Shown here: positions 13,337 through 29,386 of the stretch, in pieces
How the letters are laid out: each line of letters starts with the position of its first letter
Numbering within the stretch: the first letter of the stretch is position 1
Origin: Terrabacter sp. MAHUQ-38
Lineage (GTDB): Bacteria > Actinomycetota > Actinomycetes > Actinomycetales > Dermatophilaceae
DNA: 64,000 nucleotides
Assembly: GCF_014518425.1 (NCBI RefSeq)
Contig: NZ_JACVCU010000007.1
Coordinates: 1 to 64,000, forward strand
Direction of reading: 5' to 3'
Notes under the pieces: generated by a model
What the model was told of the DNA's origin: nothing
Seen by the model: only the letters and a program-made list of their open reading frames with translations
Databases searched by the model: none
Made by a program: the position numbers and the translations under genes

Positions 13337-15760
13337 GTGACGACGACCCCGACACCGGTGACCAGGACTCCCGTGCCCCAGACATCCGTGCCCCCGCCCA
13401 CCGCCGACGAGATCGCGTCTATGGACGCCTGGTGGCGGGCCAGCAACTACCTGACGATCGGGCAGATCTACCTGCAGGACAACGCCCTCCTGCGACGCCA
13501 TCTCATCGAGGACGACATCAAGCCCCGGCTCCTCGGCCACTGGGGCACGAGCCCCGGCCTCTCCTTCGTCTACGCGCACATGTCGCGGGTGATCCGGCAC
13601 ACGGGTCAGCAGACGATCTATCTGACCGGGCCCGGGCACGGCGGCCCCGCGCTCGTCGCCGCCGGCTATCTCGAGGGCAGCTACACCGAGACCTACCCAC
13701 GAGTGACGTGCGACGAGGCCGGCGTGAAGCGGCTGTTCCGGCAGTTCTCTGCGCCTGGCGGCATCCCCAGCCACGTGTCGGTGACGACGCCCGGGTCGAT
13801 CCACGAGGGCGGCGAGCTCGGCTACGTGCTCGTCCACGCATTCGGCGCGGTCATGGACAACCCCGACCTGCTCGCGCTCGCGGTCGTCGGCGACGGGGAG
13901 GCCGAGACCGGCCCTCTCGAGGGCTCGTGGAAGGGCATCTCGTTCCTCAACCCGCGCCGCGACGGTGCAGTGCTGCCGGTCCTGCACCTCAACGGTGCCA
14001 AGATCGCCGGTCCGACGGTGCTCGGCCGCAAGGACCCTGCCGAGGTGCGCAGCCTCCTCTCGGGCCACGGCTACGAGGTCCTCGAGGTCGAGGGTGACGA
14101 CCTGCCCGGCATGCACGAGCGTTTCGCGGAGACGCTCGCGACGGCATACGGCCGGATCAGGCAGATCCAGGCGGACGCGCGCGCGGACGGCTGGGAGCCG
14201 GAGCGTCGGCCGCGGTGGCCGCTCATCGTCCTGCGTACGCCGAAGGGCTGGACCGGGCCCGCCGAGGTGGACGGCGTCCCGGTCACCGGCACCTGGCGTT
14301 CGCACCAGGTGCCGCTCTCGGGCGTCAAGGACAACCCGGAGCACCTCGAGCTCCTCGAGACGTGGATGCGTTCCTATCGCCCCGAGGAGCTCTTCGACGA
14401 GTCGGGTGGCCCCGTCGACCTCGTGCTGAGGGCCAACCCGGAGGGCGACCTGCGGATGAGCGCGTCCCCCCACGCGAACGGCGGCGTGCTGACGCGGGAC
14501 CTCGACCTGCCCGACTTCCGCGACTTCGCCCGCGACGTGCCCGCGCCCGCGACGGTGCGTGCCGAGTCGACGCGTGCGCTCGGGGAGCTGATGCGCGAGA
14601 TCTACGTGCGCAACCCCGAGACGTTCCGCCTGTTCAGTCCCGACGAGGTGGACAGCAACCGCGTGGGCGCCGTCTTCGACGTCTCGAACCGGATGACGGC
14701 CGAGCGGGTCGAGGCCGAGGACGTCAAGCTGTCTCACGACGGGCGCGTCATGGAGGTGCTCTCGGAGCACAACTGCCACGGGTGGCTCGAGGGCTACACG
14801 CTGACGGGTCGTCACGGGCTCTTCGCGACGTACGAGGCGTTCGCCATGGTCAGCGCCTCGATGACGGTGCAGCACTGCAAATGGCTCCAGGAGGCCAACC
14901 GCCTCGACTGGCGCGCCGAGGTGCCGAGCCTCAACATCCTGCTCACCTCGACGGCGTGGCGCAACGACCACAACGGCTTCTCGCACCAAGGGCCGGGCCT
15001 CATCCAGACCGTCCTCAACGCCCGGGGCGACGTGTCACGCGTCTACCTGCCGCCGGACGCGAACTGTCTTCTGTCCGTGGCCGATCACTGCCTCCGGTCG
15101 AGGAGCTACGTCAACCTGCTCGTCATCGACAAGCAGCCGCAGCCGCAGTGGCTGACGATGGACGAGGCCGTCGAGCACTGCGCGGCCGGCGCGGGCACCT
15201 GGGACTGGGCGGGCAACGACGACGGCACCCAGGACCCCGACGTCGTCCTCGCCTGTGCCGGCGACGTCGTGACGATGGAGGTCGTGGCGGCCGCGCAGAT
15301 CCTGCGCGAGAAGCTGCCGCAGCTGCGGGTCCGTGTCGTCAACGTCGTCGACCTCATGACGCTCCCGCGGCCGCGGAGCCACCCGCACGGCATGGACGAC
15401 AGCCGGTTCGGCGAGCTCTTCACCAACCATGTCGACGTCGTCTTCGCCTTCCACGGCTACCACGGCGCCGTCCACCAGCTCGTCCACGGGCGCCCCGAGG
15501 CCGACCGCTTCCACGTGCGCGGCTTCAGCGAGGAGGGCACGACGACCACACCCTTCGACATGGTCGTGCGCAACGGCGTCGACCGCTACCACCTCGTCAT
15601 GGACGCCATCAACAACGCCGGCCGGCAGGTGCGCGGGTCGAGCGAGGTCAAGGCCTGGTGCGAGAGGCAGCTGGAGGAGCACGAGCGCTACATCGTCGAG
15701 CACCTCGAGGACATGCCCGCGGTGCGCGACTGGGTCATCACGCACCCGCTCGAGGGGTGA
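13337..15760 (+). CDS. xfp: Xylulose-5-phosphate/fructose-6-phosphate phosphoketolase
   Basis: The 807-aa thiamine diphosphate enzyme cleaves xylulose 5-phosphate or fructose 6-phosphate with phosphate to acetyl phosphate plus glyceraldehyde 3-phosphate or erythrose 4-phosphate. Family landmarks include LTGPGHGGPA near residue 97, the GDGEAETGPLEGSWKG ThDP-binding stretch near residue 180, and the C-terminal FSEEGTTTTPFDMVVRNG motif. Length is typical. It is monocistronic; its stop lies 3 bp from the stop of the convergent DeoR gene. The GTG at 13337 follows GAGAGGCGAG. In aerobic actinobacteria the enzyme supplies acetyl phosphate alongside glycolysis. Confidence 0.97.
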   Translation: MTTTPTPVTRTPVPQTSVPPPTADEIASMDAWWRASNYLTIGQIYLQDNALLRRHLIEDDIKPRLLGHWGTSPGLSFVYAHMSRVIRHTGQQTIYLTGPGHGGPALVAAGYLEGSYTETYPRVTCDEAGVKRLFRQFSAPGGIPSHVSVTTPGSIHEGGELGYVLVHAFGAVMDNPDLLALAVVGDGEAETGPLEGSWKGISFLNPRRDGAVLPVLHLNGAKIAGPTVLGRKDPAEVRSLLSGHGYEVLEVEGDDLPGMHERFAETLATAYGRIRQIQADARADGWEPERRPRWPLIVLRTPKGWTGPAEVDGVPVTGTWRSHQVPLSGVKDNPEHLELLETWMRSYRPEELFDESGGPVDLVLRANPEGDLRMSASPHANGGVLTRDLDLPDFRDFARDVPAPATVRAESTRALGELMREIYVRNPETFRLFSPDEVDSNRVGAVFDVSNRMTAERVEAEDVKLSHDGRVMEVLSEHNCHGWLEGYTLTGRHGLFATYEAFAMVSASMTVQHCKWLQEANRLDWRAEVPSLNILLTSTAWRNDHNGFSHQGPGLIQTVLNARGDVSRVYLPPDANCLLSVADHCLRSRSYVNLLVIDKQPQPQWLTMDEAVEHCAAGAGTWDWAGNDDGTQDPDVVLACAGDVVTMEVVAAAQILREKLPQLRVRVVNVVDLMTLPRPRSHPHGMDDSRFGELFTNHVDVVFAFHGYHGAVHQLVHGRPEADRFHVRGFSEEGTTTTPFDMVVRNGVDRYHLVMDAINNAGRQVRGSSEVKAWCERQLEEHERYIVEHLEDMPAVRDWVITHPLEG

Positions 15761-15763
15761 GGG

Positions 15764-16552
15764 TCAGTCGCGACGCGGCGCCACGACCACCTCGACGTCG
15801 TGGTCTCGAAAGGCTTGCAACGCAACGGGATCGGCGGAGTCGTCGGTGACGAGCGTCCAGCGGCGGGGCATGACGGCCCAGGCGTGGAACGGGGACTGGC
15901 CGAGCTTGTCGGCGTGCGCGAGGACGTACGTGTGCTCGGCCCGGCCCATCATGAGCTCCTTCAGCCGGGTCTGCTCGAGGTCGGCCTCGCAGATCCCCCG
16001 CTCCGCGTGCACGCTGTCAGCGCCCATGAAGGCGCGGTCGAAGCTGAGGCGCTGCACGGCGGCCTCGGCGAGCGGTCCGACGAAGGCCTGGCTCAGGGGC
16101 CGCAGCCGTCCGCCGAGGGCGATGACATCGATGCCGACGCTGTCGGCCAGGGTCGCCATCGCGCCGATGCCGGCGGTCACGACGGTCAGCTCGGTCAGCT
16201 CGGGGGTCTTGGTGATGGCGTCGGCGAGGGCGGCGGTGGTGGAGCCGGCGTCGAGCAGCACCGTCTCGCCCGGCTCGATCTGGGCGGCGGCCCAGTGGGC
16301 GATGTCGCGCTTGGCCGCGTGGGCCTCGCCGAGGCGCTGGCGGAGCGAGGCCTCGGGATGGTGGGCGAGACTCATGACGCCGCCGTAGGTGCGCGCGAGC
16401 TTGCCCTGCGCGGTCAGCTTGGCGAGGTCACGCCGGATCGTCGAGGCTGTCACGCCCAGCTGGTCGGACAGCTCCTCGACGCTGGCGAGGCCGCTCGTCG
16501 TCGCGAGGCGGACGATCTCGCCCCGTCGAGTCTGCGCGGTGTGCTTCGCCAC
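15764..16552 (-). CDS. DeoR/GlpR-family sugar-responsive repressor of the acid-sugar locus
   Basis: The 262-aa regulator has an N-terminal winged HTH (GLASVEELSDQLGVTASTIRRDL, residues about 18-45) and a C-terminal DeoR sensor domain with the GRLRPLSQAFVGPLAE and DRAFMGADSV motifs that bind a sugar phosphate. GTG at 16552 is preferred over GTG at 16561 because AAGG lies 8 nt before the former and abuts the latter. It begins just after the stop of PdxA2 and closes a kinase-PdxA2-DeoR operon, so it is probably the local repressor. The two palindromes at 18803-18821 and 19045-19063 are its best operator candidates (inference). Confidence 0.92.
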   Translation of the reverse strand: MAKHTAQTRRGEIVRLATTSGLASVEELSDQLGVTASTIRRDLAKLTAQGKLARTYGGVMSLAHHPEASLRQRLGEAHAAKRDIAHWAAAQIEPGETVLLDAGSTTAALADAITKTPELTELTVVTAGIGAMATLADSVGIDVIALGGRLRPLSQAFVGPLAEAAVQRLSFDRAFMGADSVHAERGICEADLEQTRLKELMMGRAEHTYVLAHADKLGQSPFHAWAVMPRRWTLVTDDSADPVALQAFRDHDVEVVVAPRRD

Positions 16553-16562
16553 GCTCGGCACC

Positions 16563-17570
16563 TTAGGCGTCCACGGGCCGCGGCGCCATCTCCGCCCCGA
16601 GCCGCAGCGCCTCGATCATCGAGCGGTGGTCGGCGACGCCGGTGCCGGCGATGTCGAAGGCCGTGCCGTGGTCGACGGACGTGCGGATGACCGGCAGGCC
16701 GATCGTGACGTTGACGCCGGCCTCGAGGCCGAGCACCTTGACCGGTCCGTGGCCCTGGTCGTGGTACATCGCGACGACGAGGTCGTAGTCGCCCCGGCCG
16801 GCGAGGAAGAAGAGCGTGTCGGCGGGCAGCGCGCCGTGGACGTCGATGCCGTCGGCGCGGCAGACCTCGACCGCGGGGTTGATCTTCGTCTCCTCCTCAC
16901 CGTGGCCGAAGAGGCCGTTCTCGCCGGCGTGCGGGTTGATGCCGCAGACGCCGATCTTCGGGCGGGGGTTGCCGGCGTCGACGAGGGCCTGGTGCCCGCG
17001 CCTGATGGTCCGCTCGACGAGGCCAGGCTCGATGCGGGCGACGGCGTCGAGGAGGCCGATGTGGGTGGTCACGTGGATGACCTTGACCCGCTCTGTCGAG
17101 AGCATCATGGACACCTCGGGCGTGCCCGTGAGCTGGGCGAGCAGCTCGGTGTGGCCCGGGAAGACGTGACCGCCGGCGTGCAGCGCCTCCTTGTTGAGCG
17201 GAGCCGTGCAGATCGCCTGGACCTTGCCGGCCATCGCGAGCTCGCAGGCGACGCGGATGTAGTGGTATGCCGCGTCGCCGGCCACAGCGGACAGCCGGCC
17301 GAACGGCAGGTCCTCCGGCAGGAGCCCGAGGTCGATGACGTTGATCCGGCCCGCGAGCTCGAGGGCGTCGTCGACGTCGGTGACCGTCACGATGTCGACC
17401 GAGACGCCGGCGAGGTCGGCGGCCTGCTTGAGGCGCAGGGCGTCACCGACGACGACGGTGCGCGCCATCGTCGCGACGTGCGGGTCGGCCAGGGCCTTGA
17501 CGATGATCTCCGGGCCGATGCCGGCGCCGTCTCCCATCGTCACGGCGATACGGGGAAGGACGGCGCTCAT
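16563..17570 (-). CDS. pdxA2: PdxA2-type 4-phosphotetronate dehydrogenase (PdxA family)
   Basis: The 335-aa enzyme is a PdxA-family NAD-dependent dehydrogenase: TMGDGAGIGPEI at the N terminus, HVFPGHTELL and the later YHDQGHGPVK and DHGTAFDIAG motifs carry the metal and substrate ligands. In biosynthesis PdxA acts in the vitamin B6 pathway, but PdxA2 proteins coded beside DUF1537 kinases oxidise 4-phospho-D-threonate or -erythronate, giving DHAP and CO2. The ATGA overlap (4 bp) with the acid-sugar kinase strongly favours the catabolic role. AGGAG precedes the ATG by 5 nt. Confidence 0.9.
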   Translation of the reverse strand: MSAVLPRIAVTMGDGAGIGPEIIVKALADPHVATMARTVVVGDALRLKQAADLAGVSVDIVTVTDVDDALELAGRINVIDLGLLPEDLPFGRLSAVAGDAAYHYIRVACELAMAGKVQAICTAPLNKEALHAGGHVFPGHTELLAQLTGTPEVSMMLSTERVKVIHVTTHIGLLDAVARIEPGLVERTIRRGHQALVDAGNPRPKIGVCGINPHAGENGLFGHGEEETKINPAVEVCRADGIDVHGALPADTLFFLAGRGDYDLVVAMYHDQGHGPVKVLGLEAGVNVTIGLPVIRTSVDHGTAFDIAGTGVADHRSMIEALRLGAEMAPRPVDA

Positions 17571-18892
17571 GGGTTCTCCTCGGTGGTGGCGCTGGGGGCG
17601 TTGGTGGTGGCGCTGGGGGCGTTGGTGGTGGCGGCGGGGTGGTTCTGTGCGGTGCGGCGGGTGCCGGTGAGCAGGTGCGTGATGACGCGGACGAGCGAGT
17701 CGGCGTCGCCGAAGCTGCCGGGGCGCGTCACGACGGTCCGGCCACCGGGTCGGCGGCTGACGACGGTGCCGGTCTCGATCTCGTCGACGATCTCGAGCGA
17801 GTGGACGCCGAGCCGGTCGAGGACCGCGCGGGCGGTCTCTCCGCCGGCGAGGAACGCCGCGTCGTAGCCCTCGAGCAGCGGCGTGACCGCGTCGACCAGG
17901 GCCCCGGTGAGGGCACGCGAGCGGCTGGGGTCGGCGGGGGCCGCAGGGTCGAGCGCGACGACGACGGTGCCGTCAGTAGGCAGACCGGACAGGCGCGCGG
18001 CCGTGCCGGAGGGGTCGGCGAGCAGCTCGTCGGGCTGGAGCAGCACGGTCTCGGACGCGAGGGACCCGACCTGCGCGATCTGCGCGGGCACGCCCGGCGC
18101 ACGCGTGCCCAGGACCATGAGCATGGACCGCGCCGCGCCGACGCCGCCGGGGCGAGACTGGCGCTCGGGCGGTTCGGCAGGGGTCAGGTCGGGCAGTGCC
18201 CGCACGGCCACGGCGACGAGTGCGCCGGAGCCGACGAGCAGGCTCGGCGAACCGGAGCGGGTCGCGGCCGCGTGCACGACCTCGAGGTCGGTGTCGGTGA
18301 CGGCGTCGCACACCGCCACGACGCCGGAGTCCGCTGCGGCGGCGAGGGCGTCGGCCACGGCGTCGATGCCGAGCGCGATGACGGCGTGCGGGACCAGGAC
18401 CGTCGGCATGGGGTGCAGGGCCTCGGCCACCCGCGTCGGGGCGGCGTTCGGCTCGACGCCCCAGAGGTCGGAGTCGTGCAGTGGCGTACCGCCCACGTGC
18501 AGCACACCGTCGCGCACGACGCGGTCGAGGGCCGGGTTGGCGACGGCGACGACGGGCGTGCGCCGCAGCACCTGCGCGAGCGCGGCCACCTCGGCGGCGA
18601 CATGCCCGCGCAGCAACGAGTCGACCTTCTTGACGACGACCGGCGTGTCGGACACCAAGGCGGCGGCCACGCGGACCGCCCGCACGGCCTCGTCCGTGGG
18701 CAGCCGGCGCGAGTCGGTGTCGACCGTGACCACCGCTGCGTCCGAGGACGTCGTGACGGCGACCGCCTCACCCGCGGCGGAGAGTCCTGCCAGGACGACC
18801 ATGCTGCGCGAAACGCGCAGCAATGCATGTGAAGCACACTCGGCGGCGCCGCTCAGGTCGTCCGCGACGATGCCTAGGGTCCGTGCTGCCAT
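17567..18892 (-). CDS. Four-carbon acid sugar kinase (DUF1537; DtnK/DenK-like)
   Basis: The 441-aa protein opens with GIVADDLSGAAECA, the substrate-binding Asp-Asp motif of DUF1537 kinases, and has a C-terminal nucleotide-binding half with FLAGGETARAVLDRLGV. Family members phosphorylate D-threonate, L-threonate, D-erythronate or 3-oxo-tetronate at O4; which one cannot be told here. It is the first gene of a leftward operon with PdxA2 and DeoR. Two oddities: a 7-residue repeat (NAPSATT, twice) forms a low-complexity C-terminal tail, and a palindrome sits in the coding sequence about 70-90 bp past the start codon. Confidence 0.9.
   Translation of the reverse strand: MAARTLGIVADDLSGAAECASHALLRVSRSMVVLAGLSAAGEAVAVTTSSDAAVVTVDTDSRRLPTDEAVRAVRVAAALVSDTPVVVKKVDSLLRGHVAAEVAALAQVLRRTPVVAVANPALDRVVRDGVLHVGGTPLHDSDLWGVEPNAAPTRVAEALHPMPTVLVPHAVIALGIDAVADALAAAADSGVVAVCDAVTDTDLEVVHAAATRSGSPSLLVGSGALVAVAVRALPDLTPAEPPERQSRPGGVGAARSMLMVLGTRAPGVPAQIAQVGSLASETVLLQPDELLADPSGTAARLSGLPTDGTVVVALDPAAPADPSRSRALTGALVDAVTPLLEGYDAAFLAGGETARAVLDRLGVHSLEIVDEIETGTVVSRRPGGRTVVTRPGSFGDADSLVRVITHLLTGTRRTAQNHPAATTNAPSATTNAPSATTEENP
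17582..17633. repeat. 21-bp direct repeat in the 3' end of the acid-sugar kinase
   Basis: Two complete 21-bp units (17582-17602 and 17603-17623) plus a 10-bp partial third. Because 21 is a multiple of three, the repeat encodes tandem NAPSATT heptapeptides in the kinase tail. Confidence 0.9.
18803..18821. promoter_or_regulatory. Intragenic palindrome, second candidate operator
   Basis: GCTGCGCG-AAA-CGCGCAGC is an 8-bp perfect inverted repeat inside the kinase coding region. It shares the 15-bp core TGCGCGAAWCGCGCA with the palindrome at 19045-19063; the centres are 242 bp apart. This spacing and identity suggest an auxiliary repressor site. Confidence 0.55.
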
Positions 18893-19033
18893 GACTCCTC
18901 CTCACCGTGCTCGTGAAGCAGTAACGCCTGTGTGGCAAGGGGATTGGCGACCTTGCCGGTGGAATGAAGGGAGGGTGCTCCAGTCTGGGAGACTGGCCCG
19001 GACGGCATACGGCGAACCGTTCCTTCACAAAAA

Positions 19034-19062
19034 ACGCTACAGGTATTGCGCGAATCGCGCAA
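19034..19062 (-). promoter_or_regulatory. Promoter of the kinase-PdxA2-DeoR operon
   Basis: On the minus strand TTGCGC (19057-19062) and TAGCGT (19034-19039) are 17 bp apart. The -35 hexamer lies inside the right arm of the palindrome at 19045-19063, so a bound repressor would block it. The predicted leader to the kinase ATG is about 135 nt. Confidence 0.55.
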
Positions 19063-19063
19063 T
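19045..19063. promoter_or_regulatory. Perfect palindromic operator between the divergent acid-sugar operons
   Basis: ATTGCGCGA-A-TCGCGCAAT has 9-bp perfect arms around a single base. It lies in the 247-bp region between the kinase start (18892) and the substrate-binding protein start (19140), overlapping the leftward promoter. Nothing else resembling a gene is seen in this intergenic region. Confidence 0.65.
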
Positions 19064-19139
19064 GGTGTCAAGGTTGAGGAACCCGAGGGGCGCAGCGTGC
19101 GCCACCGACGGAGAGGCCACCGCTCAACGAGGAGTCCCG

Positions 19140-20768
19140 ATGCCCCAGCAGCCTGCACTGCTTCCCCCGTCTGACCACCCGACGCGGGAGGTCTCGCGTC
19201 GCTCGATCCTCAAGCTCGCCTCGCTGGCCGGTGCCGGAGCCATCTTCGCTCCCGCGCTCGCCGCGTGTGCAGGGCCCAAGTCCGCCAGCAACGCGAGCAC
19301 CGCCGGGGCGGGCGCCGCGGGTGGCGCCCTGAGCATCGTGCTCAACCGCAACCTGGTCAGCCTCGACAACAAGCTGAACCAGTACGACGCGGCCGTCACC
19401 GTCCAGCGCGCTGTGCGCGAGGCCCTGACGAAGATCGGCGACGACCTCAAGCCCGAGCTCGTCCTCGCAGAGTCGTTCGAGCAGAGCAAGCCCACCGAGT
19501 GGACCGTAAAGCTGCGCAGCGACATCCACTACTCCGACAAGTCGCCCGTGACGGTCGAGGACGTCGAGACCGCGCTCAAGCTCTACTTCGAGGTCAAGGC
19601 CGGCTACGTCGCGTCGCAGTTCCCCGAGCAGCCCACCTTCGCCAAGGTCGACGACAAGACCTTCACGCTCACGACCAAGAACCCCGTCGTGACGCTCGAC
19701 TCGCTCATGTCGAACATCCTCATCACGCCGGCCAAGGACAACAAGGCAGAGGAGCTGAGCACCGGCCTGGGCACAGGGCCGTTCGTCATCGCGAACGCCG
19801 ACACCGGCACCGGCACGTACAAGCTGACGCGCAACGACAACTACTGGGGCGAGAAGGCGAAGCTCCAGGAGGTCAACGTCTCCTACCAGGAGGAGGAGGG
19901 CGCCCGCGTCATCGCGATCACGTCCGGCCAGGCCGACGTCATCGACACGATCACCCCCGAGTCCGCGGCCGCGCTCAAGACGAACGCCGACATCGACGTC
20001 ATCGAGACGCCGGGCACGCGCCTGATCCACCTCTTCTTCAACTTCCGCAAGCCGAAGGGTCACCCGCTCGCCAACCCGAAGGTGCGCGAGGCGCTCTCCT
20101 ACGCGATCGACCACGACTCGCTCATCAAGGCCCTCATGAACAACCAGGTCACGTCGGCCGAGGGCGTCGTTCCCAAGACCCTCGCGGGCTTCGCGAAGAC
20201 GGGCGACTACACGTACGACCCGGCGAAGGCCAAGAGCATGCTCGCCGACAACGGTGCGAGCGGCCTCAAGCTCACCTTCATCTGGGAGGACTCGGAGTTC
20301 GCGGGCGCCTCGCGCGTCCTCGAGGCCGTCTCGCAGATGCTCGCGGCCGTGGGCGTCACCGCGACGCTGAAGATGATCCCCAAGGGCGGCGAGATCAACG
20401 CGTGGCGTCGCGGCGAGGCGGGCGACTGGGACGTGCTGGCCAACGGCTACGGCAACCAGACGGGCCTGGCCCTGACGAACCTCCAGGGCCAGTACGGCGG
20501 CACGGCGGAGAAGGAGAAGACGCGTGACACCTACCACGGCTTCGTCGTCCCCGAGATCACGGCGCTGCTCGACCAGGCGGGCGCCGAGGCCGACGAGACC
20601 AAGCGCAACGACCTGCTGAAGCAGGCGCAGGAGAAGATCTGGGCTCTGTGGCCGGCCATGTGGGCCTGGACGCCCAACAACGTCCTCGCCAAGCGCAAGC
20701 GCGTCGGCGGCCTCAAGCTGCGCGCCATCAACTCCTACGACCTCGACGCCGTGACGGTCTCGGCCTGA
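19140..20768 (+). CDS. ABC transporter substrate-binding lipoprotein (family 5, DppA/OppA-like)
   Basis: The 542-aa solute receptor has a twin-arginine-like signal (SRRSILKLAS, R20-R21) followed by a lipobox LAAC with Cys43, so it is probably exported and lipid-anchored. The mature part is a family-5 binding protein (motifs SDIHYSDKSPVTVEDV and the later KPKGHPLANPKVREALSYAI). The family binds peptides, nickel chelates, opines and also oligosaccharides or sugar acids. ATG at 19140 is set by GAGGAG just upstream. It leads an operon with two permeases, two ATPases and sugar-acid enzymes, so an acid-sugar glycoside ligand is inferred. Confidence 0.93.
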   Translation: MPQQPALLPPSDHPTREVSRRSILKLASLAGAGAIFAPALAACAGPKSASNASTAGAGAAGGALSIVLNRNLVSLDNKLNQYDAAVTVQRAVREALTKIGDDLKPELVLAESFEQSKPTEWTVKLRSDIHYSDKSPVTVEDVETALKLYFEVKAGYVASQFPEQPTFAKVDDKTFTLTTKNPVVTLDSLMSNILITPAKDNKAEELSTGLGTGPFVIANADTGTGTYKLTRNDNYWGEKAKLQEVNVSYQEEEGARVIAITSGQADVIDTITPESAAALKTNADIDVIETPGTRLIHLFFNFRKPKGHPLANPKVREALSYAIDHDSLIKALMNNQVTSAEGVVPKTLAGFAKTGDYTYDPAKAKSMLADNGASGLKLTFIWEDSEFAGASRVLEAVSQMLAAVGVTATLKMIPKGGEINAWRRGEAGDWDVLANGYGNQTGLALTNLQGQYGGTAEKEKTRDTYHGFVVPEITALLDQAGAEADETKRNDLLKQAQEKIWALWPAMWAWTPNNVLAKRKRVGGLKLRAINSYDLDAVTVSA

Positions 20769-20805
20769 TCGACAGCGCTGCACCCGACGGCACCAAGGTG
20801 ATCCC

Positions 20806-21738
20806 ATGTTGACCTACGTCCTCAAGCGCATCGGGCAGACCGTGCTCACCGCGTTCCTCGCGACCGCGACGGTCTTCGTCCTGCTGCGGATGGCCCCGGG
20901 CGACCCGGCGGCGAACTACGCCCCGCCGAACCCCACCTCGGCCCAGCTCGAGGCCATCCGCCAGCAGTTCGGACTCGACCAGTCGATCCCGGTGCAGTTC
21001 GTGACCTTCCTGCAGCACCTCCTCCAGGGTGACGTCGGCACCTCGTTCTTCTTCAAGCGCCCCGCGCTCGAGGTCGTCATGGAACGCCTGCCCTACACCA
21101 TCACGCTGGCGGTGGCCGCGATCGTCGTCACGGCGGTGGTCGCGATCCCCCTCGGCGTGTGGATGGCCCGCCGGGCCAACACGGCACAGGAGCTCGGAGC
21201 CAACATCGCGACGATCGCCGGCCAGTCGATGCCCGACTTCTGGATCGGCTTCGTGCTGCTCATCATCTTCGCCGTCAACTTCGGCTGGTTCTCGCCGGCC
21301 GGGTTCAACTCGGCGAGCTCGATCGTGCTGCCGACCGTGACGATCGCGATCCTGCAGGTGGCCCTCATCTCGCGGCTCGTGCGCCGAGAGATGGTCGTCA
21401 ACCTCGCCTCGCCGTACCTCACGGTGGCGCGGTCACGTGGCATCTCGGAACGCGCACTGACGTGGCGCTACGCGTTCGGCAACTCGGCCATCCCCGTGGT
21501 CACGGCGCTCGGCACCCGGTTCGCAGCGATGCTGAACGGTGTGGTCATCGTCGAGGTCGTCTTCAAGTGGCCCGGTGTGGGGGAGCTCGTCGTCAACGCC
21601 CTCAAGCAGCGCGACTTCCCGCTCATCCAGGCCACGGTCCTCGTCACGGTCGTGCTGGCCCTCGTCGTCCAGCTCCTCGTCGACCTGCTCTACCCGCTCA
21701 TGGACCCGCGGGTCCGACTCGGAGAGGCCAGCGCATGA
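20806..21738 (+). CDS. ABC transporter permease (DppB/OppB-like)
   Basis: The 310-aa membrane protein has about six transmembrane helices and the BPD_transp_1 domain, starting with the typical LKRIGQTVLTAF first helix, the MAPGDPA loop, and an EAA-type cytoplasmic loop around RGISERALTWRYAFGNS. It pairs with the next permease to form the channel of the importer. The stop overlaps the next ATG (4 bp). Confidence 0.94.
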   Translation: MLTYVLKRIGQTVLTAFLATATVFVLLRMAPGDPAANYAPPNPTSAQLEAIRQQFGLDQSIPVQFVTFLQHLLQGDVGTSFFFKRPALEVVMERLPYTITLAVAAIVVTAVVAIPLGVWMARRANTAQELGANIATIAGQSMPDFWIGFVLLIIFAVNFGWFSPAGFNSASSIVLPTVTIAILQVALISRLVRREMVVNLASPYLTVARSRGISERALTWRYAFGNSAIPVVTALGTRFAAMLNGVVIVEVVFKWPGVGELVVNALKQRDFPLIQATVLVTVVLALVVQLLVDLLYPLMDPRVRLGEASA

Positions 21739-22661
21739 CCACCTCCACGCCGAACCTCAGCGAGGTCCCCGGCTCGATCCTCGGTCGCGAGTCGGCCGTC
21801 ACCAGGCTCCTGCTGCGCCGCTCGGCCGCCGCTCGCCGCGCCCGCTACAGCACCATCAAGATCTGGGTCGGCGTCGTCTGCGCCGGGCTCGTCGTCATCC
21901 CCGTGGCGCTCGCCCAGGTGCTGCCGCTGCCCGACCCGATCGTCGGCGCCCTGTCGGAGTCGTCGCTGCCGCCGTTCAGCCCGGGGCACCTCTTCGGCAC
22001 CGACCCCAACGGTCGCGACCTGCTCAGCCGCATCCTGCACGGTGGGCAGACCTCGCTCGTCATCGGCGTGCTCGCCATCATCGTCTCGGGCCTCGTCGGC
22101 ATCGCGGCGGGGGCTGCGGCGGGCTACTTCGGCGGCTGGGTCGACACGATCGTCTCGCGTCTGCTCGAGGCCCAGATGTCGCTGCCCCTGCTGCTCATGC
22201 TGCTGCTCGTCGTCGCGCTCTTCGGCCCGTCGATCCCGGTCATCACGCTCGTCATCGCGTTCGCGCAATGGCCCGAGCCCGCCCGCATCACCCGGGCGCT
22301 CGTGCTCGTCGAGCGGGAGAAGCCCTACGTGGCGGCCGCCCGCGTGCTGGGGCTGCACCGCGTCTCGATCATCGCCAGGCACGTCATCCCCAACGTGCTC
22401 CAGCAGGTGCTCGTCGTCGTGCTGCTGCTCCTCGCCCAGGCTGTGCTGCTCGAGAGTGCCCTGAGCTTCCTCGGCGCCGGCGTCCAGCGGCCCTACCCGA
22501 CGTGGGGCGGCATCATCTCCGACGGCCGCGAGCTCTTCGTCACCGGCAAGTGGTGGCTCGTCACCATCCCGGGTGTCGTCATCGCCCTGCTCGTCGTCGG
22601 TGTCAACCTCGTCGGAGACGGCCTGCGCGACCGCGTCCGCCGCGCGAAGGGAGACCAGTGA
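21735..22661 (+). CDS. ABC transporter permease (DppC/OppC-like)
   Basis: The 308-aa partner permease has the DppC-type N-terminal extension and first helix (VGVVCAGLVVIPVALAQ), the GTDPNGRDLLSRI periplasmic motif and an EAA loop (AAARVLGLHRVSIIARHVIPN). The ATG at 21735 overlaps the previous stop, and its TGA shares one base with the following ATG, so translation is tightly coupled. Confidence 0.94.
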   Translation: MTTSTPNLSEVPGSILGRESAVTRLLLRRSAAARRARYSTIKIWVGVVCAGLVVIPVALAQVLPLPDPIVGALSESSLPPFSPGHLFGTDPNGRDLLSRILHGGQTSLVIGVLAIIVSGLVGIAAGAAAGYFGGWVDTIVSRLLEAQMSLPLLLMLLLVVALFGPSIPVITLVIAFAQWPEPARITRALVLVEREKPYVAAARVLGLHRVSIIARHVIPNVLQQVLVVVLLLLAQAVLLESALSFLGAGVQRPYPTWGGIISDGRELFVTGKWWLVTIPGVVIALLVVGVNLVGDGLRDRVRRAKGDQ

Positions 22662-23530
22662 TGAGTGTCTTAGAGGTCAAGAACCTCCAGGTCGAGCTGA
22701 TGACCGGCTCGAGCGTCGTCCGCGCCGTCGACGGGGTCAGCTTCCACATCGACAAGGGTGAGACCGTCACGATCATCGGCGAGTCCGGCTCGGGCAAGTC
22801 GACGACGGCCATGGCCGTCCTCCGGCTGCTGCCCGACGACCTTGCGGTCATCTCGGGTGAGGCGCGCATCGCGGGCCAGGACGTCACCGGCAGCCGCAAG
22901 GTCATCGACAAGCTGCGGGGGCGCGCCGTCGCGCTCATCCCGCAGGACCCGATGACGGCGCTCAACCCGATCCGCACGATCGGGGCGCAGATGACCGAGG
23001 CCGTCCGCGTGAAGTACCCGAAGCTGGGCAAGGCGGAGGCGAAGGCGCGGGCGCTGTCGCTCATGGAGCAGGTCCACATCCGCAACCCCGCCAAGCAGTT
23101 CGACGCCTACCCGCACCAGCTGTCGGGCGGCATGCTGCAGCGCGTGCTCATCGCGATGGCGGTCTCGACCGACGCCGACCTCATCGTCGCCGACGAGCCC
23201 ACGAGCGCCCTCGACGTCACGGTCCAGGCCGGCATCCTCGACCTGCTGCTCGAGCTGCAGGAACAGACAGGAATCGCGCTGCTGCTCATCACGCACGACC
23301 TCGGCGTCGCGCGCCTCATGAGCGACCGCGTCCACGTCATGAAGTCGGGCGCGTTCGTCGAGGGCGGTCCCGTCACCGACGTGGTCGACCACCCCCAGCA
23401 CCCGTACACCCAGAAGCTGCTCGGTGCGATCCCCGAGCTGGGCCCGTGGGAGGACCCCGCGCTCGCGCAACCCGAGGCGTATGCCGTGAGCGACGTCCCC
23501 GGGCTCGACAAGGAGGCCAGCCATGGCTGA
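22661..23530 (+). CDS. ABC transporter ATP-binding protein (DppD/OppD-like)
   Basis: The 289-aa ATPase shows Walker A GESGSGKST, signature LSGGMLQRV, Walker B LIVADEPTSALD and switch His in LITHDL. A C-terminal HPYTQKLLGAIPEL segment is the oligopeptide-type tail. GTG at 22658 is in frame directly before the ATG at 22661; the ATG is preferred, with GAAGGGAG upstream. Confidence 0.94.
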   Translation: MSVLEVKNLQVELMTGSSVVRAVDGVSFHIDKGETVTIIGESGSGKSTTAMAVLRLLPDDLAVISGEARIAGQDVTGSRKVIDKLRGRAVALIPQDPMTALNPIRTIGAQMTEAVRVKYPKLGKAEAKARALSLMEQVHIRNPAKQFDAYPHQLSGGMLQRVLIAMAVSTDADLIVADEPTSALDVTVQAGILDLLLELQEQTGIALLLITHDLGVARLMSDRVHVMKSGAFVEGGPVTDVVDHPQHPYTQKLLGAIPELGPWEDPALAQPEAYAVSDVPGLDKEASHG

Positions 23531-24371
23531 CGACCTGCTCACCGTCCGCAACCTCGTCGTCGAGTACCGCACCGGCAAGGAGGTGTTCCGCGCCGTCGAC
23601 GACGTGTCGTTCAGCGTGCCGCGGGGCGGCACCCTCGCCATCGTCGGCGAGTCGGGGTGCGGCAAGTCGACGATCGCCAAGGCGCTGGTGCGGCTGCTCA
23701 AGCCGACGTCGGGTCAGATCGACCTCGACGGCACCGACCTCGCCCAGCTCCCCGAGAAGCGACTGCGACCGCAGCGGCACCGCGTGCAGATGGTCTTCCA
23801 GGACCCGTACGGCTCGCTCGACCCGCACCTGACGGCCCAGGAGATCGTCGCCGAGCCGATCGCCGTCCGCGGCGAGAAGTCGCGAAAGATCCAGCGCGAC
23901 AAGGCCGCCGAGCTCATCGACCGCGTCGGCCTGCCCAAGACGGCGCTCGAGCGCAAGCCGCCGGAGTTCTCCGGTGGGCAGCGCCAGCGCATCGGCATCG
24001 CCCGCGCTCTCGCGTCCGGCCCGGAGCTGCTCGTCTGCGACGAGGCGACGAGCGCGCTCGACGTGTCGGTGCAGGCCCAGGTGCTCGAGCTGCTCGCCGA
24101 CATCCAGAAGGAGACCGGCCTGACCTACCTCTTCATCTCGCACAACCTCGGCGTGGTGCGGGCCATCTCGCAGGACACCCTCGTCATGCGGGCCGGCCAG
24201 ATCGTCGAGAGCGGCCGCACCGACGACCTGCTCTCGCGCCCGCAGGAGGAGTACACCCAACGGCTGCGCCGCTCGGCCCTCGAGCCGGGTCTCATGACCG
24301 GTATCAAACCGCGACACCTCATCCGACACATCGCCGCCTCCCGGACGGCGGAGACCGAGAAGGCCTCATGA
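23523..24371 (+). CDS. ABC transporter ATP-binding protein (DppF/OppF-like)
   Basis: The 282-aa second ATPase has Walker A GESGCGKST, signature FSGGQRQRI and Walker B LLVCDEATSALD. It overlaps the preceding ATPase gene by 8 bp and the next gene by 4 bp. Together with the two permeases and the lipoprotein it completes a five-component importer. Confidence 0.94.
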   Translation: MADDLLTVRNLVVEYRTGKEVFRAVDDVSFSVPRGGTLAIVGESGCGKSTIAKALVRLLKPTSGQIDLDGTDLAQLPEKRLRPQRHRVQMVFQDPYGSLDPHLTAQEIVAEPIAVRGEKSRKIQRDKAAELIDRVGLPKTALERKPPEFSGGQRQRIGIARALASGPELLVCDEATSALDVSVQAQVLELLADIQKETGLTYLFISHNLGVVRAISQDTLVMRAGQIVESGRTDDLLSRPQEEYTQRLRRSALEPGLMTGIKPRHLIRHIAASRTAETEKAS

Positions 24372-25351
24372 CCCTCCCCACCATCGACCTGCCCGGCCTC
24401 GACCGGCCGCTCTCCCAGCTCGTGCTCGGCACGATGACCTTCGGCGACACCGTCGACCTCGACACCGCCCGCACGATGGTCGACACGGCGCTCGACGCCG
24501 GCATCACCTCGATCGACACCGCCAACGGGTATGCCGCCGGGCGCAGCGAGGAGATGCTCGGCGAGATCCTCGCCGGCCGGCCACACGCGGCGACGGTCGC
24601 CACCAAGGCCGGCATCTACCCCGGTGACGCCGGTGACGCGCCGCTGCTCTCCGCGGCGGGGCTTCGCTCGTCGCTCGAGGCGAGCCTGCGCCGGCTGCGC
24701 ACCGACCACGTCGACGTCTACTACCTGCACCAGCCCGACCGGGCCGTGCCGATCGACGAAACCGTGTCCGCCCTGGGCGAGCTCGTCAAGGAGGGCAAGG
24801 TCCGCGCCATCGGCGTCTCGAACTTCTCCGCGTGGCAGATCGGCGACGTCTTCGCGGCCTGCGACGCGCTCGGAGCGCCACGGCCGATCCTCGCCCAGCA
24901 GCTCTACAACCTCGTCGCCCGGCGCATCGAGGCCGAGTACGCCGAGTTCGCCACGACCAAGGGGCTCGCGACGATCGTCTACAACCCGCTCGGCGGCGGC
25001 CTGCTCACCGGGCGGCACTCGTTCGCCGAGTCGCCGACCGAGGGCCGCTTCGGCTCGTCGGCGCTCTCGACGATGTACAAGGACCGCTACTGGAACGCCG
25101 AGACGTTCGCGGTCGTCGAGGCGCTCGGCGCGATCGCGTCGGACGCCGGCATCACCCTTCCCGAGCTGTCGCTGCGCTGGCTGCTGAGCAAGCCGGTCGT
25201 GTCGTCGGTGCTGCTCGGTGGATCCAAACCACACCAGCTGGAGGCCAACATCACTGCTGCACAAGCCGGTCCGCTCCCCGACGACGTCGTCGCCGCGTGC
25301 GACGAGGCCGGCCTGGCGATCGCCGGGTCGATGCCGGGGTACAACCGATGA
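24368..25351 (+). CDS. Aldo/keto reductase
   Basis: The 327-aa NADPH-dependent reductase has the TIM-barrel AKR signatures: Asp in SIDTANGYAAGRSEEMLG with catalytic Tyr, Lys in VATKAG, His in YYLHQPD and a C-terminal RWLLSKPVVSSVLLGGSK cofactor loop. Members reduce sugar aldehydes or ketones; a step between the imported sugar acid and the tetronate kinase substrate is plausible but unproven. ATGA overlaps on both sides place it firmly in the operon. Confidence 0.92.
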   Translation: MTLPTIDLPGLDRPLSQLVLGTMTFGDTVDLDTARTMVDTALDAGITSIDTANGYAAGRSEEMLGEILAGRPHAATVATKAGIYPGDAGDAPLLSAAGLRSSLEASLRRLRTDHVDVYYLHQPDRAVPIDETVSALGELVKEGKVRAIGVSNFSAWQIGDVFAACDALGAPRPILAQQLYNLVARRIEAEYAEFATTKGLATIVYNPLGGGLLTGRHSFAESPTEGRFGSSALSTMYKDRYWNAETFAVVEALGAIASDAGITLPELSLRWLLSKPVVSSVLLGGSKPHQLEANITAAQAGPLPDDVVAACDEAGLAIAGSMPGYNR

Positions 25352-26142
25352 GCACGGCGATGCAGCGCAGTCGCGAGCGTGTGCTCGACTACGCCCGACG
25401 GGTGCGGGCGCGAGAGACGATCCTCGGCTACTGGGTCATCATCGACTCGCCGGTGTCGACGGAGCGGATCGCCCGGCTCGGCTACGACTACGTCTGCTTC
25501 GACGCCCAGCACGGGCTGTTGGACTACAAGGGCATCCTCGCCGGGATGACGGCGATCGACGCCGGCGGCGAGTCGGTCGGCATGGTGCGGGTCGGCGCCA
25601 ACGACCCGTTCCTCATCGGCCAGGCCCTCGACTCGGGCGCTGCCGGCATCATCGTGCCGCTGGTCAACACGGCCGAGGACGCGGCTCGTGCGGTGTCGTT
25701 CGCGAAGTACCCGCCGGACGGCATCCGCTCCTACGGCCCGATGCGCTCGCAGCTGCGCATCGGCCCCAACCCGGCCGACTCGAACGCCGCGACAGTGGTG
25801 CTCGCGATGATCGAGACGCCACAGGGCCTCGAGAACGTCGAGGCCATCGCGGCGACGCCGGGCATCGACGGGCTCTACATCGGTCCGTCCGACCTGCGCA
25901 TCGCCGTCGGTGGTGCGACGTCGACCGACCCAGCCGTCGGCGAGGCGTTCGAGTCAGCTGTCGAGCGGGTCCTGCGGGCGGCCGAGTCGGCGGGCATTGC
26001 TGCCGGGTTCCACACTCCCAGTGGGGAGGTCGCGGCCAAGCGTCTCGGCCAGGGCTTCACGCTCGCCACGGTCTCCTCCGACCTCATCCACCTCGAGCAG
26101 GCGGCGACCGCCCACCTCAAGGCCGCCCGGGGAGCGTCGTGA
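25348..26142 (+). CDS. HpcH/HpaI-family class II aldolase
   Basis: The 264-aa protein matches metal-dependent aldolases of 2-keto-3-deoxy sugar acids (GarL, YfaU, HpaI). Visible are FDAQHGLLDY with the catalytic His55, an Arg in MVRVGAND, the metal-binding Glu of AMIETPQG and Asp of YIGPSDLRIA. These enzymes release pyruvate and an aldehyde (for example tartronate semialdehyde or lactaldehyde). In this operon it probably performs the retro-aldol step on the breakdown product. It overlaps its neighbours by 4 bp at each end. Confidence 0.92.
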   Translation: MSTAMQRSRERVLDYARRVRARETILGYWVIIDSPVSTERIARLGYDYVCFDAQHGLLDYKGILAGMTAIDAGGESVGMVRVGANDPFLIGQALDSGAAGIIVPLVNTAEDAARAVSFAKYPPDGIRSYGPMRSQLRIGPNPADSNAATVVLAMIETPQGLENVEAIAATPGIDGLYIGPSDLRIAVGGATSTDPAVGEAFESAVERVLRAAESAGIAAGFHTPSGEVAAKRLGQGFTLATVSSDLIHLEQAATAHLKAARGAS

Positions 26143-27368
26143 GCCTGGCCGGCGCCGGCACGATCCCGGCCGACGGTGTCCTGCGGCCGCGTGACGGGGG
26201 CGGCCGCACGGCATACCTCCCGACCCCGACGGTGCAGTGCCACGCGGCCAACCTCGCGTGGCTGCCCAACGGCGACCTCGCGTGCGCCTGGTTCGGCGGG
26301 ACGCAGGAGGGTGTCAGCGACATCACCGCGTACCTCTCGCGTATGCCGTCCGGCTCGGACACGTGGCTCGACCCGGTGCCGCTCAGCGACGACCCCTCGC
26401 GCTCGGAACAGAACCCTGTCCTCTTCACGGCACCCGACGGCGACCTGTGGTTGCTCTACACGGCTCAGCTCGCCGGCAACCAGGACACCTCGGAGGTGCG
26501 CCGGCGTGTGTCGCGTGACGGCGGCGACACCTGGGAGCCTCCGACGGTGCTGCTGCCGGCGACGTCGGCCGGCGGTGTGTTCGTGCGCCAGCCGCCCGTC
26601 ACGCTGGCGAGTGGCCGCATCCTGCTGCCCGTCTTCAACTGCGTGACGGTGCCGGGGGAGAAGTGGGTCGGCAACGCGGACACGTCGAGCGTGTGGTGGA
26701 GCGACGACGGTGGCGCCACGTGGGCCGAGACGGCGGTGCCCGGGTCGCTGGGCTGCGTCCACATGAACATCATCGTGCGACAGGACGGCTCGCTCTGGGC
26801 GTGCTTCCGCAGCCGCTGGGCCGACCACATCTGGGAGACGACGTCGACCGATGAGGGGTTGACGTGGGCCGCGCCGACGCCGACCGGGCTGCCCAACAAC
26901 AACTCCTCGATACAGGCCGCCGGCCTCGGTGGAGAAGAGGTCGCGCTCGTCTTCAACCGAAGCTCGTCGGCCGATGCCACCGAGCGCCGGATGTCGCTCT
27001 ACGACGAGATCGACGACGAGGGCGTGCGTGACGGGCTCGAGGGTCCGGTCGTCGCGGAGCCGTCGCCCGAGACGGCCGAGGGCCGGCGGACCGCCTTCTG
27101 GGGTGCTCCGCGAGCACCGATGACGCTCGGCCTCAGCCCGGACGACGGGCGCTCGTGGCCGGTCACCGTCGACCTCGAGACCGGCGACGGCTACTGCATG
27201 TCCAACAACTCGCGCGACGGCCTCAACCGCGAGCTCTCCTATCCCTCGGTGCTGCCCGGCCGTGACGGCGACCTGCACGTCGCCTACACGTACCACCGGC
27301 GGGCCATCAAGCACGTGCACCTGCCCGCCGACGTCGTCGACCGCTTCCGAGCGAGCGCATCGCGGTGA
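26139..27368 (+). CDS. Cytoplasmic Asp-box (BNR/sialidase-fold) glycosidase- or lyase-like protein
   Basis: The 409-aa protein has a sialidase-like beta-propeller signature: four Asp-boxes of the form S-x-D-x-G-x-T/S-W at about residues 125, 188, 236 and 333 (SRDGGDTW, SDDGGATW, STDEGLTW, SPDDGRSW). The wording resembles the BNR_2 'exo-alpha-sialidase' group. There is no signal peptide, so it should act on an imported substrate. No N-acetylneuraminate lyase, epimerase or NagA/NagB-type gene is nearby, so a true sialidase role is doubtful; uronic-acid glycosides are an alternative. GTG at 26139 overlaps the aldolase stop (GTGA). Confidence 0.82.
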   Translation: MSLAGAGTIPADGVLRPRDGGGRTAYLPTPTVQCHAANLAWLPNGDLACAWFGGTQEGVSDITAYLSRMPSGSDTWLDPVPLSDDPSRSEQNPVLFTAPDGDLWLLYTAQLAGNQDTSEVRRRVSRDGGDTWEPPTVLLPATSAGGVFVRQPPVTLASGRILLPVFNCVTVPGEKWVGNADTSSVWWSDDGGATWAETAVPGSLGCVHMNIIVRQDGSLWACFRSRWADHIWETTSTDEGLTWAAPTPTGLPNNNSSIQAAGLGGEEVALVFNRSSSADATERRMSLYDEIDDEGVRDGLEGPVVAEPSPETAEGRRTAFWGAPRAPMTLGLSPDDGRSWPVTVDLETGDGYCMSNNSRDGLNRELSYPSVLPGRDGDLHVAYTYHRRAIKHVHLPADVVDRFRASASR

Positions 27369-28069
27369 GGGATCCCGCAGCACGCAGCGCGGTCGTGACG
27401 GGGGCCAGCTCGGGCATCGGGCTCGCCATCGCCCACGACCTCGTAGCGGCCGGGTGGGAGGTGCTCGGCCTGAGCCGCTCGCGCGGCGCGCTGTCGGACG
27501 CCGCCACGTGGGTGCCCTGCGACTTGGCCGACCTCACGTCGACCGGCGAAGCCGTGCAGGCGGTGCGCGAGGCCCTGGCCGGCGGCGTCGGCGCCGTCGT
27601 CCATGCCGCCGGGCTGCAGTACTCGGCCGGAGTCGGGCGCCTGCGGCCCGACCACGGCGGGCAGATGTGGGCCGTGCACGTGCGCGGGGCCGAGCTCGTG
27701 GTCGGCGGGCTCGTCGATGCCCTCGTCGACGACTGCCGCGTCGTGCTCGTCGGCAGCCGGACGATGACCGGCGTGCCCGGCAAGAGCCAGTACGCCGCGA
27801 CGAAGGCCGCGCTCGCCGCGATGGCCCGCGCGTGGGCGGCCGAGCTCGCACCGCGTCGGATCACCGTCAACGTCGTGGCGCCCGGGCCGACGCGCACGGC
27901 CATGCTCGACGACCCGAACCGTGCGTCGGTGCCGCCCGTCCAGCCGCCACTCGGCCGTCTCGTCGAGCCGTCCGAGGTGGCGGCGCTGACCCGGTTCCTG
28001 CTCGAGCCGACCGGTGCGATGGTGACCGGTCAGACGATCGTCATCTGCGGCGGCGCCTCGCTGGGCTGA
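27365..28069 (+). CDS. Short-chain dehydrogenase/reductase (SDR)
   Basis: The 234-aa classical SDR has the cofactor motif TGASSGIG (residues 12-19), a catalytic Ser in VGSRTMTG and the Y-x-x-x-K pair in QYAATKAAL. It is the last gene of the nine-gene acid-sugar operon, overlapping the Asp-box gene by 4 bp. A dehydrogenase acting on the released sugar or sugar acid is inferred; family members vary too much to name the substrate. Confidence 0.9.
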   Translation: MRDPAARSAVVTGASSGIGLAIAHDLVAAGWEVLGLSRSRGALSDAATWVPCDLADLTSTGEAVQAVREALAGGVGAVVHAAGLQYSAGVGRLRPDHGGQMWAVHVRGAELVVGGLVDALVDDCRVVLVGSRTMTGVPGKSQYAATKAALAAMARAWAAELAPRRITVNVVAPGPTRTAMLDDPNRASVPPVQPPLGRLVEPSEVAALTRFLLEPTGAMVTGQTIVICGGASLG

Positions 28070-29322: not shown

Positions 29323-29386
29323 GGTCGGGGACTTCCTCGTCGGAGCGGACGGCATGCGGCAGGGCGCATGCCACAGCAGGTGCTCG

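Follow-up and report, generated by a model that had tools for sequence, protein, structure and literature searches.

We analysed a 64,000-nucleotide stretch of Terrabacter sp. MAHUQ-38 (contig NZ_JACVCU010000007.1, positions 1–64,000; hereafter the window, GC content ∼71%), in which 12 genes fill positions 15764–28069. A minus-strand unit of three genes, encoding a DeoR-family regulator, a PdxA2-type dehydrogenase and a DUF1537 kinase, is opposed by nine plus-strand genes that encode, in order, an SBP_bac_5 solute receptor, two permeases and two ATPases of an ATP-binding cassette (ABC) importer, an aldo/keto reductase (AKR), an HpcH/HpaI aldolase, a BNR_2 protein and a short-chain dehydrogenase/reductase (SDR). 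From the second permease onward, every plus-strand gene overlaps the preceding one by a few bases. A preliminary description of this DNA had listed the same set, with DUF1537, PdxA2 and DeoR facing a nine-gene operon, and the open reading frames together with Pfam matches above curated cut-offs agree with it. The features are as follows.

15764–16561, minus strand: DeoR-family regulator (Pfam DeoRC 139 bits, HTH_DeoR 56 bits)
16563–17570, minus strand: PdxA2-type dehydrogenase, putatively a 4-phospho-D-threonate/D-erythronate 3-dehydrogenase (Pfam PdxA 345 bits)
17567–18892, minus strand: DUF1537 four-carbon acid sugar kinase (Pfam SBD_N 114 bits, NBD_C 54 bits)
19045–19063, no strand: perfect inverted repeat (9-bp arms, 1-bp spacer) in the intergenic region of the two divergent units, candidate operator for DeoR
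19140–20768, plus strand: SBP_bac_5 solute receptor with a lipoprotein-like leader recognised by eye (Pfam 235 bits; best PDB relative 5u4o)
20806–21738, plus strand: ABC permease 1, OppB-type (Pfam BPD_transp_1 118 bits)
21735–22661, plus strand: ABC permease 2, OppC-type (Pfam BPD_transp_1 84 bits)
22661–23530, plus strand: ABC ATPase 1, OppD-type (recognised from sequence, no Pfam scan; conserved in relatives)
23523–24371, plus strand: ABC ATPase 2, OppF-type (recognised from sequence, no Pfam scan; conserved in relatives)
24368–25351, plus strand: AKR, proposed C4-semialdehyde reductase (Pfam 239 bits)
25348–26142, plus strand: HpcH/HpaI aldolase, proposed to release pyruvate (Pfam 116 bits)
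26139–27368, plus strand: BNR_2 protein, cytoplasmic, GTG start, with the fold of sialidases; would form a 2-keto-3-deoxy acid as a hydrolase or hydratase (Pfam 215 bits)
27365–28069, plus strand: SDR oxidoreductase, accessory (Pfam adh_short_C2 122 bits)

The conservation of this arrangement was assessed in 95 loci, which are not a random sample: the 80 best BNR_2 matches listed from one scan of named genomes (in which at least 80 exist), 11 hand-picked plasmid loci and four whole-genome loci (L014, L015, L016 and L128). Partner genes were sought within 12.5 kb of BNR_2, and six loci with short flanks were excluded, which leaves 89 counted. The counts are of loci and not of independent events, as the 80 include many closely related ones (Arthrobacter, Pseudarthrobacter); L014 and L057, each on a 668,980-base contig, are probably one place counted twice, and the other whole-genome loci may duplicate named ones. 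Of the 80 best loci, 55 were found to carry all 12 genes, in the window order in most cases and rearranged in Rhodococcus, whereas no other family of genes in these stretches occurs in more than 8 of the 80, and a few small families span genera (gene calls were rough). Because of this disparity, sequence comparison supports well the view that the 12-gene cluster is a real conserved unit beyond chance. A DUF1537 kinase, a PdxA protein, a pyruvate aldolase and an aldehyde reductase all lie near BNR_2 in 77 of the 89 counted loci. This is the neighbourhood co-occurrence check that the preliminary description had proposed, and the conserved partner set upholds its suggestion of an acid-sugar catabolic locus whose pyruvate aldolase implies a substrate larger than four carbons (C4). 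The SDR was detected in 75 of the 89, and was not detected in the four Rhizobium/Sinorhizobium/Agrobacterium loci or in the five Curtobacterium/Microbacterium loci among them.

The set is wider than one organism and occurs in Actinobacteria and on rhizobial plasmids. Among the named-genome matches listed, the nearest BNR_2 proteins are from Terrabacter and Humibacillus, and many Actinobacteria carry relatives. Within the genus, 8 of 9 genomes encode BNR_2 (E ≤ 1e-10; the ninth genome is 74% complete), as do 3 of 396 genomes sampled from the phylum (E ≤ 1e-20) and 2 of 289 genomes from the class of a proteobacterial relative (E ≤ 1e-40), the centre genome being counted in each case; the low phylum and class counts imply that its distribution is patchy. 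Relatives are present on 302 of 72,556 plasmid records (many from near-identical strains), 237 of which belong to Rhizobium, Sinorhizobium, Agrobacterium, Ensifer or Neorhizobium. Annotated plasmids that carry the set include those of Azospirillum sp. B510, Caballeronia, Comamonadaceae, R. etli (p42b) and Roseicitreum, as well as pRL9 of Rhizobium johnstonii 3841, pSymA of Sinorhizobium meliloti and pAt of Agrobacterium fabrum; on a Pantoea ananatis plasmid the set is present, with the kinase not detected. The cluster is thus patchy yet widely spread among soil and plant-associated bacteria, including strains in frequent use. Individual plasmid loci show variations of their own: in Azospirillum sp. 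B510 a fumarylacetoacetate-hydrolase family gene lies between BNR_2 and the SDR (L131, 13230–13994), and in Caballeronia sp. SBC2 the DUF1537 and PdxA genes are apparently fused into one (L133, 8046–10352).

Within the conserved unit, enzymes are exchanged one for one. The aldolase slot is occupied by an HpcH protein in 62 of the 89 loci, by a DapA-type protein in 18, by both in none and by neither in nine, and the reductase slot by AKR in 71, by an iron-containing alcohol dehydrogenase (Fe-ADH) in 14, by both in none and by neither in four. The pairings are HpcH with AKR (60 loci), DapA-type with Fe-ADH (12), DapA-type with AKR (five) and HpcH with Fe-ADH (two). HpcH and DapA-type proteins have pyruvate aldolase chemistry in common, as AKR and Fe-ADH proteins have aldehyde reduction. 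The exchange of unrelated enzymes in one fixed slot points to a fixed reaction there, and the aldolase and reductase swaps thus suggest an order of steps in which a 2-keto-3-deoxy acid gives pyruvate and an aldehyde, and the latter a C4 aldonate, its 4-phosphate and finally dihydroxyacetone phosphate (DHAP). The importer varies as well: an Opp-type receptor was detected in 70 of the 89 loci, and loci of other BNR_2 relatives have in its stead a sodium:solute symporter, a CitMHS carrier, a carrier of the major facilitator superfamily (MFS) or an NMT1-type ABC importer. As importers of five kinds overall serve the cluster, the substrate would be a small acid, and the earlier claim that the importer brings in a glycoside is not borne out. 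The CitMHS carrier is found in Curtobacterium and Microbacterium together with a DapA-type aldolase and a small VOC-fold protein, the MFS carrier in three Sinomonas loci and one Pseudarthrobacter locus, the NMT1-type importer in Bosea with Fe-ADH and a distant HpcH, and the sodium:solute symporter in Methylobacterium and Rhodopila with a DapA-type aldolase and Fe-ADH. In L030 (12706–13062) and L029 (6470–6817) the small VOC-fold protein is encoded close to the DapA-type aldolase, and neither locus gave an SDR match.

Family scores bear on the individual steps to different degrees. The adjacent DUF1537 and PdxA-family genes give SBD_N, NBD_C and PdxA matches above the Pfam cut-offs, and these families include D-threonate/D-erythronate kinases and 4-phosphate 3-dehydrogenases (KEGG entries given in PMC13185595; PMC10971088). 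The window PdxA passes TIGR00557 (pdxA) and is the sole PdxA match in the genome, and the PdxA of the Pantoea ananatis cluster passes the D-threonate 4-phosphate dehydrogenase equivalog cut-off (668 against 583 bits). In all five DUF1537 proteins scanned, the D-threonate kinase model scores above the 3-oxo-tetronate kinase model, with every score below cut-off. DUF1537 is the fastest-changing protein of the unit, at 29–34% identity in Arthrobacter-type loci against 69–75% for PdxA2, and a second DUF1537 gene of the same genome (G000, C11:913328–914005; L001) scores 262 bits against 116 bits for that of the window. The window HpcH is below both the HpaI and the GarL equivalog cut-offs (133 against 369 and 145 against 407 bits), with HpaI, a C7-diacid aldolase model, among its relatives. 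For the DapA-type aldolase of L099, TIGR02313, also a C7-diacid aldolase model, ranks second after dapA and is below cut-off; the dapA and GarL models somewhat outscore the C7-diacid models. The L099 protein scores 84 against 382 and 91 against 281 bits with the NanA equivalogs. The Pantoea clusters contain in addition a YhcH-family gene, and E. coli YhcH is described as opening the ring of sialic acid, itself a 2-keto-3-deoxy acid in cyclic form, so that a DapA-family aldolase can act (PMC8141875). A role of the window PdxA in vitamin B6 synthesis was set aside as the gene lies within an acid-sugar cluster; that it is the only PdxA match of the genome does not by itself exclude B6. Actinobacteria make vitamin B6 by another route.

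From the gene set, its conservation and its swaps, all of which are observed, we infer the reactions, their direction and order, and the substrate. Compared across loci, the aldolase–reductase–kinase–PdxA logic is well supported at the level of sequence. A small sugar acid would be imported and split to pyruvate and a C4 acid that feeds glycolysis; if the reductase feeds DUF1537 and PdxA2, then it should act on a semialdehyde acid of four carbons, and the aldolase on a C7 2-keto-3-deoxyaldarate. An acid of this kind such as 3-deoxy-D-lyxo-heptulosaric acid (Dha) is the best-fitting substrate, to which we attach roughly even confidence. In the proposed scheme the ABC importer would bring in the small acid (step 1), and the cytoplasmic BNR_2 protein would yield free 2-keto-3-deoxy-heptarate, either from a Dha ketoside or by hydrating the glycal daucic acid (step 2). 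The HpcH/HpaI aldolase, elsewhere the DapA-type enzyme, would release pyruvate and a C4 semialdehyde acid (step 3), which AKR, elsewhere Fe-ADH, would reduce to D-threonate (step 4). Phosphorylation at O4 by DUF1537 (step 5), followed by PdxA2 oxidation at C3 with loss of CO2 (step 6), would lead to DHAP. The SDR would be accessory, outside the numbered steps. Stereochemistry derived by hand predicts D-threonate as the product from Dha, and D-threonate is a DUF1537/PdxA2 substrate. Three hints fit Dha, namely the P. ananatis PdxA score, the likeness of the aldolases to C7-diacid models and the YhcH gene of Pantoea, and the BNR_2 fold is likewise that of enzymes that bind such acids. The DUF1537–PdxA fusion in Caballeronia also counts in favour of the scheme. 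The octulosonate KDO (3-deoxy-D-manno-octulosonate) and sialic acid were rejected as substrates, as their retro-aldol cleavage gives arabinose or N-acetylmannosamine and no C4 acid.

By mass, the composition of daucic acid is that of Dha minus water. We take its skeleton to be formally the 2,3-dehydro form, or glycal, of an acid of the Dha type, possibly of D-lyxo configuration; it would relate to that acid as DANA (2-deoxy-2,3-dehydro-N-acetylneuraminic acid) does to sialic acid. Daucic acid is described as a fragment of m/z 203.02 of carrot conjugates, in which it is joined to phenolics (PMC7589261), and in banana pigments it is conjugated to chlorophyll catabolites (PMC3499688, PMC4950323). 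Dha has been called a seven-carbon sialic acid analogue (PMC6811678) and, as described in PMC12168206, is one of two sugars known in plants from rhamnogalacturonan II (RG-II) alone. If correct, the scheme would provide an enzyme path for the Dha of pectin RG-II, or for daucic acid. For the glycal of sialic acid, E. coli is described as using an NAD enzyme that proceeds via keto (presumably 4-keto) intermediates (PMC7315737); by analogy the window SDR might be a similar glycal-handling enzyme, yet the SDR was not detected in the rhizobial loci.

Several known systems resemble parts of the scheme. The DUF1537/PdxA2 pathway (DtnK/DenK with PdxA2) for D-threonate and D-erythronate shares with it the families of the kinase and the dehydrogenase and, as proposed, the two final steps, which lead to DHAP; as described in PMC10971088 and PMC13185595, that pathway begins at the free C4 acid, whereas here BNR_2, aldolase and reductase are conserved alongside. 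Like sialic acid (Nan) catabolism, the cluster combines a sialidase-fold protein with a pyruvate aldolase, in some loci also with a sodium:solute symporter or MFS carrier, and in Pantoea with a YhcH-family protein; in contrast to Nan systems, the aldolase product here would pass to a C4 acid kinase and PdxA2, the proposed acid is C7 and not C9, and the DapA-type aldolase scores far too low for the NanA cut-offs. HpaI and GarL are class II pyruvate aldolases of the same family as the window HpcH, and HpaI, by its model name, cleaves a C7 4-hydroxy-2-keto diacid; the window protein differs in falling far short of both equivalogs. The GH143 Dha hydrolase of Bacteroides thetaiotaomicron is, by description, a propeller enzyme that acts on Dha with a Tyr–Glu pair, and differs in being five-bladed and in acting on RG-II chains (PMC6811678). 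Searches of open-licence papers aimed at a pathway of the present kind found no description of one, nor did those for Dha and daucic acid, in line with the preliminary description, which knew of no pathway with this exact gene set.

The AlphaFold2 model of the BNR_2 protein has a mean confidence (pLDDT) of 89.4, and the top Foldseek matches are sialidases (E 3e-17; query-normalised TM scores of 0.67 to 7lbu and 0.66 to 1eur). Four Asp boxes of the form S-x-D-x-G-x-[TS]-W are present, whose S, D and W residues vary little or not at all across 30 sequences, and by eye the window protein lacks a leader sequence, as the earlier assignment of a cytoplasmic Asp-box protein had it; in nine proteobacterial plasmid loci the annotated starts leave no space for a leader. 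The active site was compared with that of five actinobacterial proteins with a sialidase RIP motif, out of eleven BNR_2 proteins, with a profile alignment that spans residues 61–340. In it, R224 is opposite the second arginine of the sialidase triad, the third arginine falls at a gap (R284, or R325 by motif and eye), and the sialidase Glu is opposite a gap next to H208-M-N210; by eye alone, invariant His35 stands at the position of the first triad arginine and Y368 at that of the Tyr. His35, His208, R224, R325 and Y368 are invariant in the 30 sequences. On this alignment, which is partly by eye, part of the active site is seemingly missing, and the protein is probably not a canonical sialidase. 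It may either cleave Dha ketosides or hydrate the Dha glycal. A bolder reading, which we regard as doubtful, is that BNR_2 is a daucic acid hydratase and not a glycosidase, that the cluster gives bacteria of soils and plants a first path for the breakdown of daucic acid and Dha, and that the name exo-alpha-sialidase is wrong for many genes of rhizobia and their relatives. That gene name is given in 32 of the 40 best plasmid records and in 19 of 40 records spread over the ranking, and the scheme, if true, would correct it.

The following observations weigh against the route from Dha to D-threonate. The best NCBIfam model for the window DUF1537, D-threonate kinase, gives 90.5 bits against a cut-off of 450, and the D-threonate 4-phosphate dehydrogenase model ranks second for the window PdxA (340 against 583 bits). 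D-erythronate would suit the same enzymes, and sequence does not separate it from D-threonate; the scheme leaves the SDR without a step, and Opp-type importers can also carry larger ligands. Moreover, 12 of the 89 loci are without at least one partner, namely seven of Streptomyces together with L097, L132, L130, L016 and L139. What the seven Streptomyces clusters lack is the aldolase, and in L080 the reductase as well. None of the four partners lies within 12.5 kb of BNR_2 in L130 (Pantoea sp. Nvir), and DUF1537 was not found on two Pantoea plasmids, that of P. ananatis included, the chromosomes not being searched. L097 has neither DUF1537 nor SDR in place, with three DUF1537 matches on other contigs of the genome. 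As to the remaining exceptions, DUF1537 was not detected in L132, and the BNR_2 proteins of L016 and L139 are only 38% and 29% identical. In all seven of these Streptomyces genomes an HpcH protein 65–68% identical to that of the window is encoded elsewhere, and in the six surroundings fetched a homologue of the cluster DeoR (53–54%) lies within ∼3 kb of it in every case. The AKR in a second PdxA2–AKR–HpcH locus matches the reductase missing from L080. A second kind of Streptomyces locus, in L123 and L127, has PdxA2 facing AKR–HpcH with no BNR_2; in L123 AKR–HpcH is followed by genes that by eye resemble a 2-hydroxyacid dehydrogenase and an NRAMP-like carrier.

These Streptomyces arrangements, with HpcH apart from the cluster in seven genomes and PdxA2–AKR–HpcH standing without BNR_2 in two loci, would also fit two activities in one regulon, whereby DUF1537–PdxA2 serve D-threonate or D-erythronate and the aldolase, reductase and BNR_2 serve an unrelated keto acid. 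We consider this improbable, as 77 of the 89 loci keep the kinase, PdxA, aldolase and reductase in one neighbourhood even though parts are replaced. The view of the preliminary description is that a glycoside of a uronic or aldonic acid is taken up by the importer and cut in the cytoplasm by BNR_2, and that the aldolase and DUF1537/PdxA2 then degrade what is released. This view draws on the frequency of the Opp-type receptor, the sialidase fold and the lack of a leader by eye; the exchange of the importer for symporter, CitMHS, MFS or NMT1-type carriers speaks against it, as does the lack of any enzyme for the second sugar half among the conserved genes (commonest extra family, 8 of 80 loci), and it is unlikely. 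Taken as a whole, that earlier interpretation is partly supported.

If the substrate were instead an aldonic keto acid of seven carbons, for example 3-deoxy-D-arabino-heptulosonate, the aldolase would yield pyruvate and erythrose, and the oxidoreductases, of which most loci have two, would oxidise erythrose to D-erythronate, also served by PdxA2/DenK according to KEGG names. The swap of AKR for Fe-ADH is more natural for reduction of an aldehyde than for its oxidation to an acid. Oxidation of an aldehyde to an acid is usually carried out by an aldehyde dehydrogenase, none of which is among the 12 genes, and we rate heptulosonate as a highly improbable substrate. Finally, the SBP_bac_5 relatives with solved structures include receptors for peptides, opines, nickel and other ligands, which would suit a peptide or opine importer cluster with enzymes for amino-acid derived substrates; since the 12 genes include no peptidase or amino-acid enzyme and the enzymes are of acid-sugar types, we give this next to no credence.

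With regard to regulation of the cluster, DeoR would control both divergent units through the inverted repeat at 19045–19063. The repeat is the sole exact copy in 64 kb; with three mismatches allowed there are three sites, a count within chance, as 8 of 100 shuffles attain it. It is identical in L021, L025 and L026 and similar in Arsenicicoccus and several Arthrobacter-type loci, and no inverted repeat of this type was found in many other loci compared. The deoR gene is present in most of the 80 loci and lies at the opposite end of the cluster in some Arthrobacter. Beyond the conserved 12 genes, a phosphoketolase gene (XFP, 13337–15760) converges on deoR with four bases between the ends, and past the SDR end of the cluster lies a thiolase gene (28126–29355) on the opposite strand.

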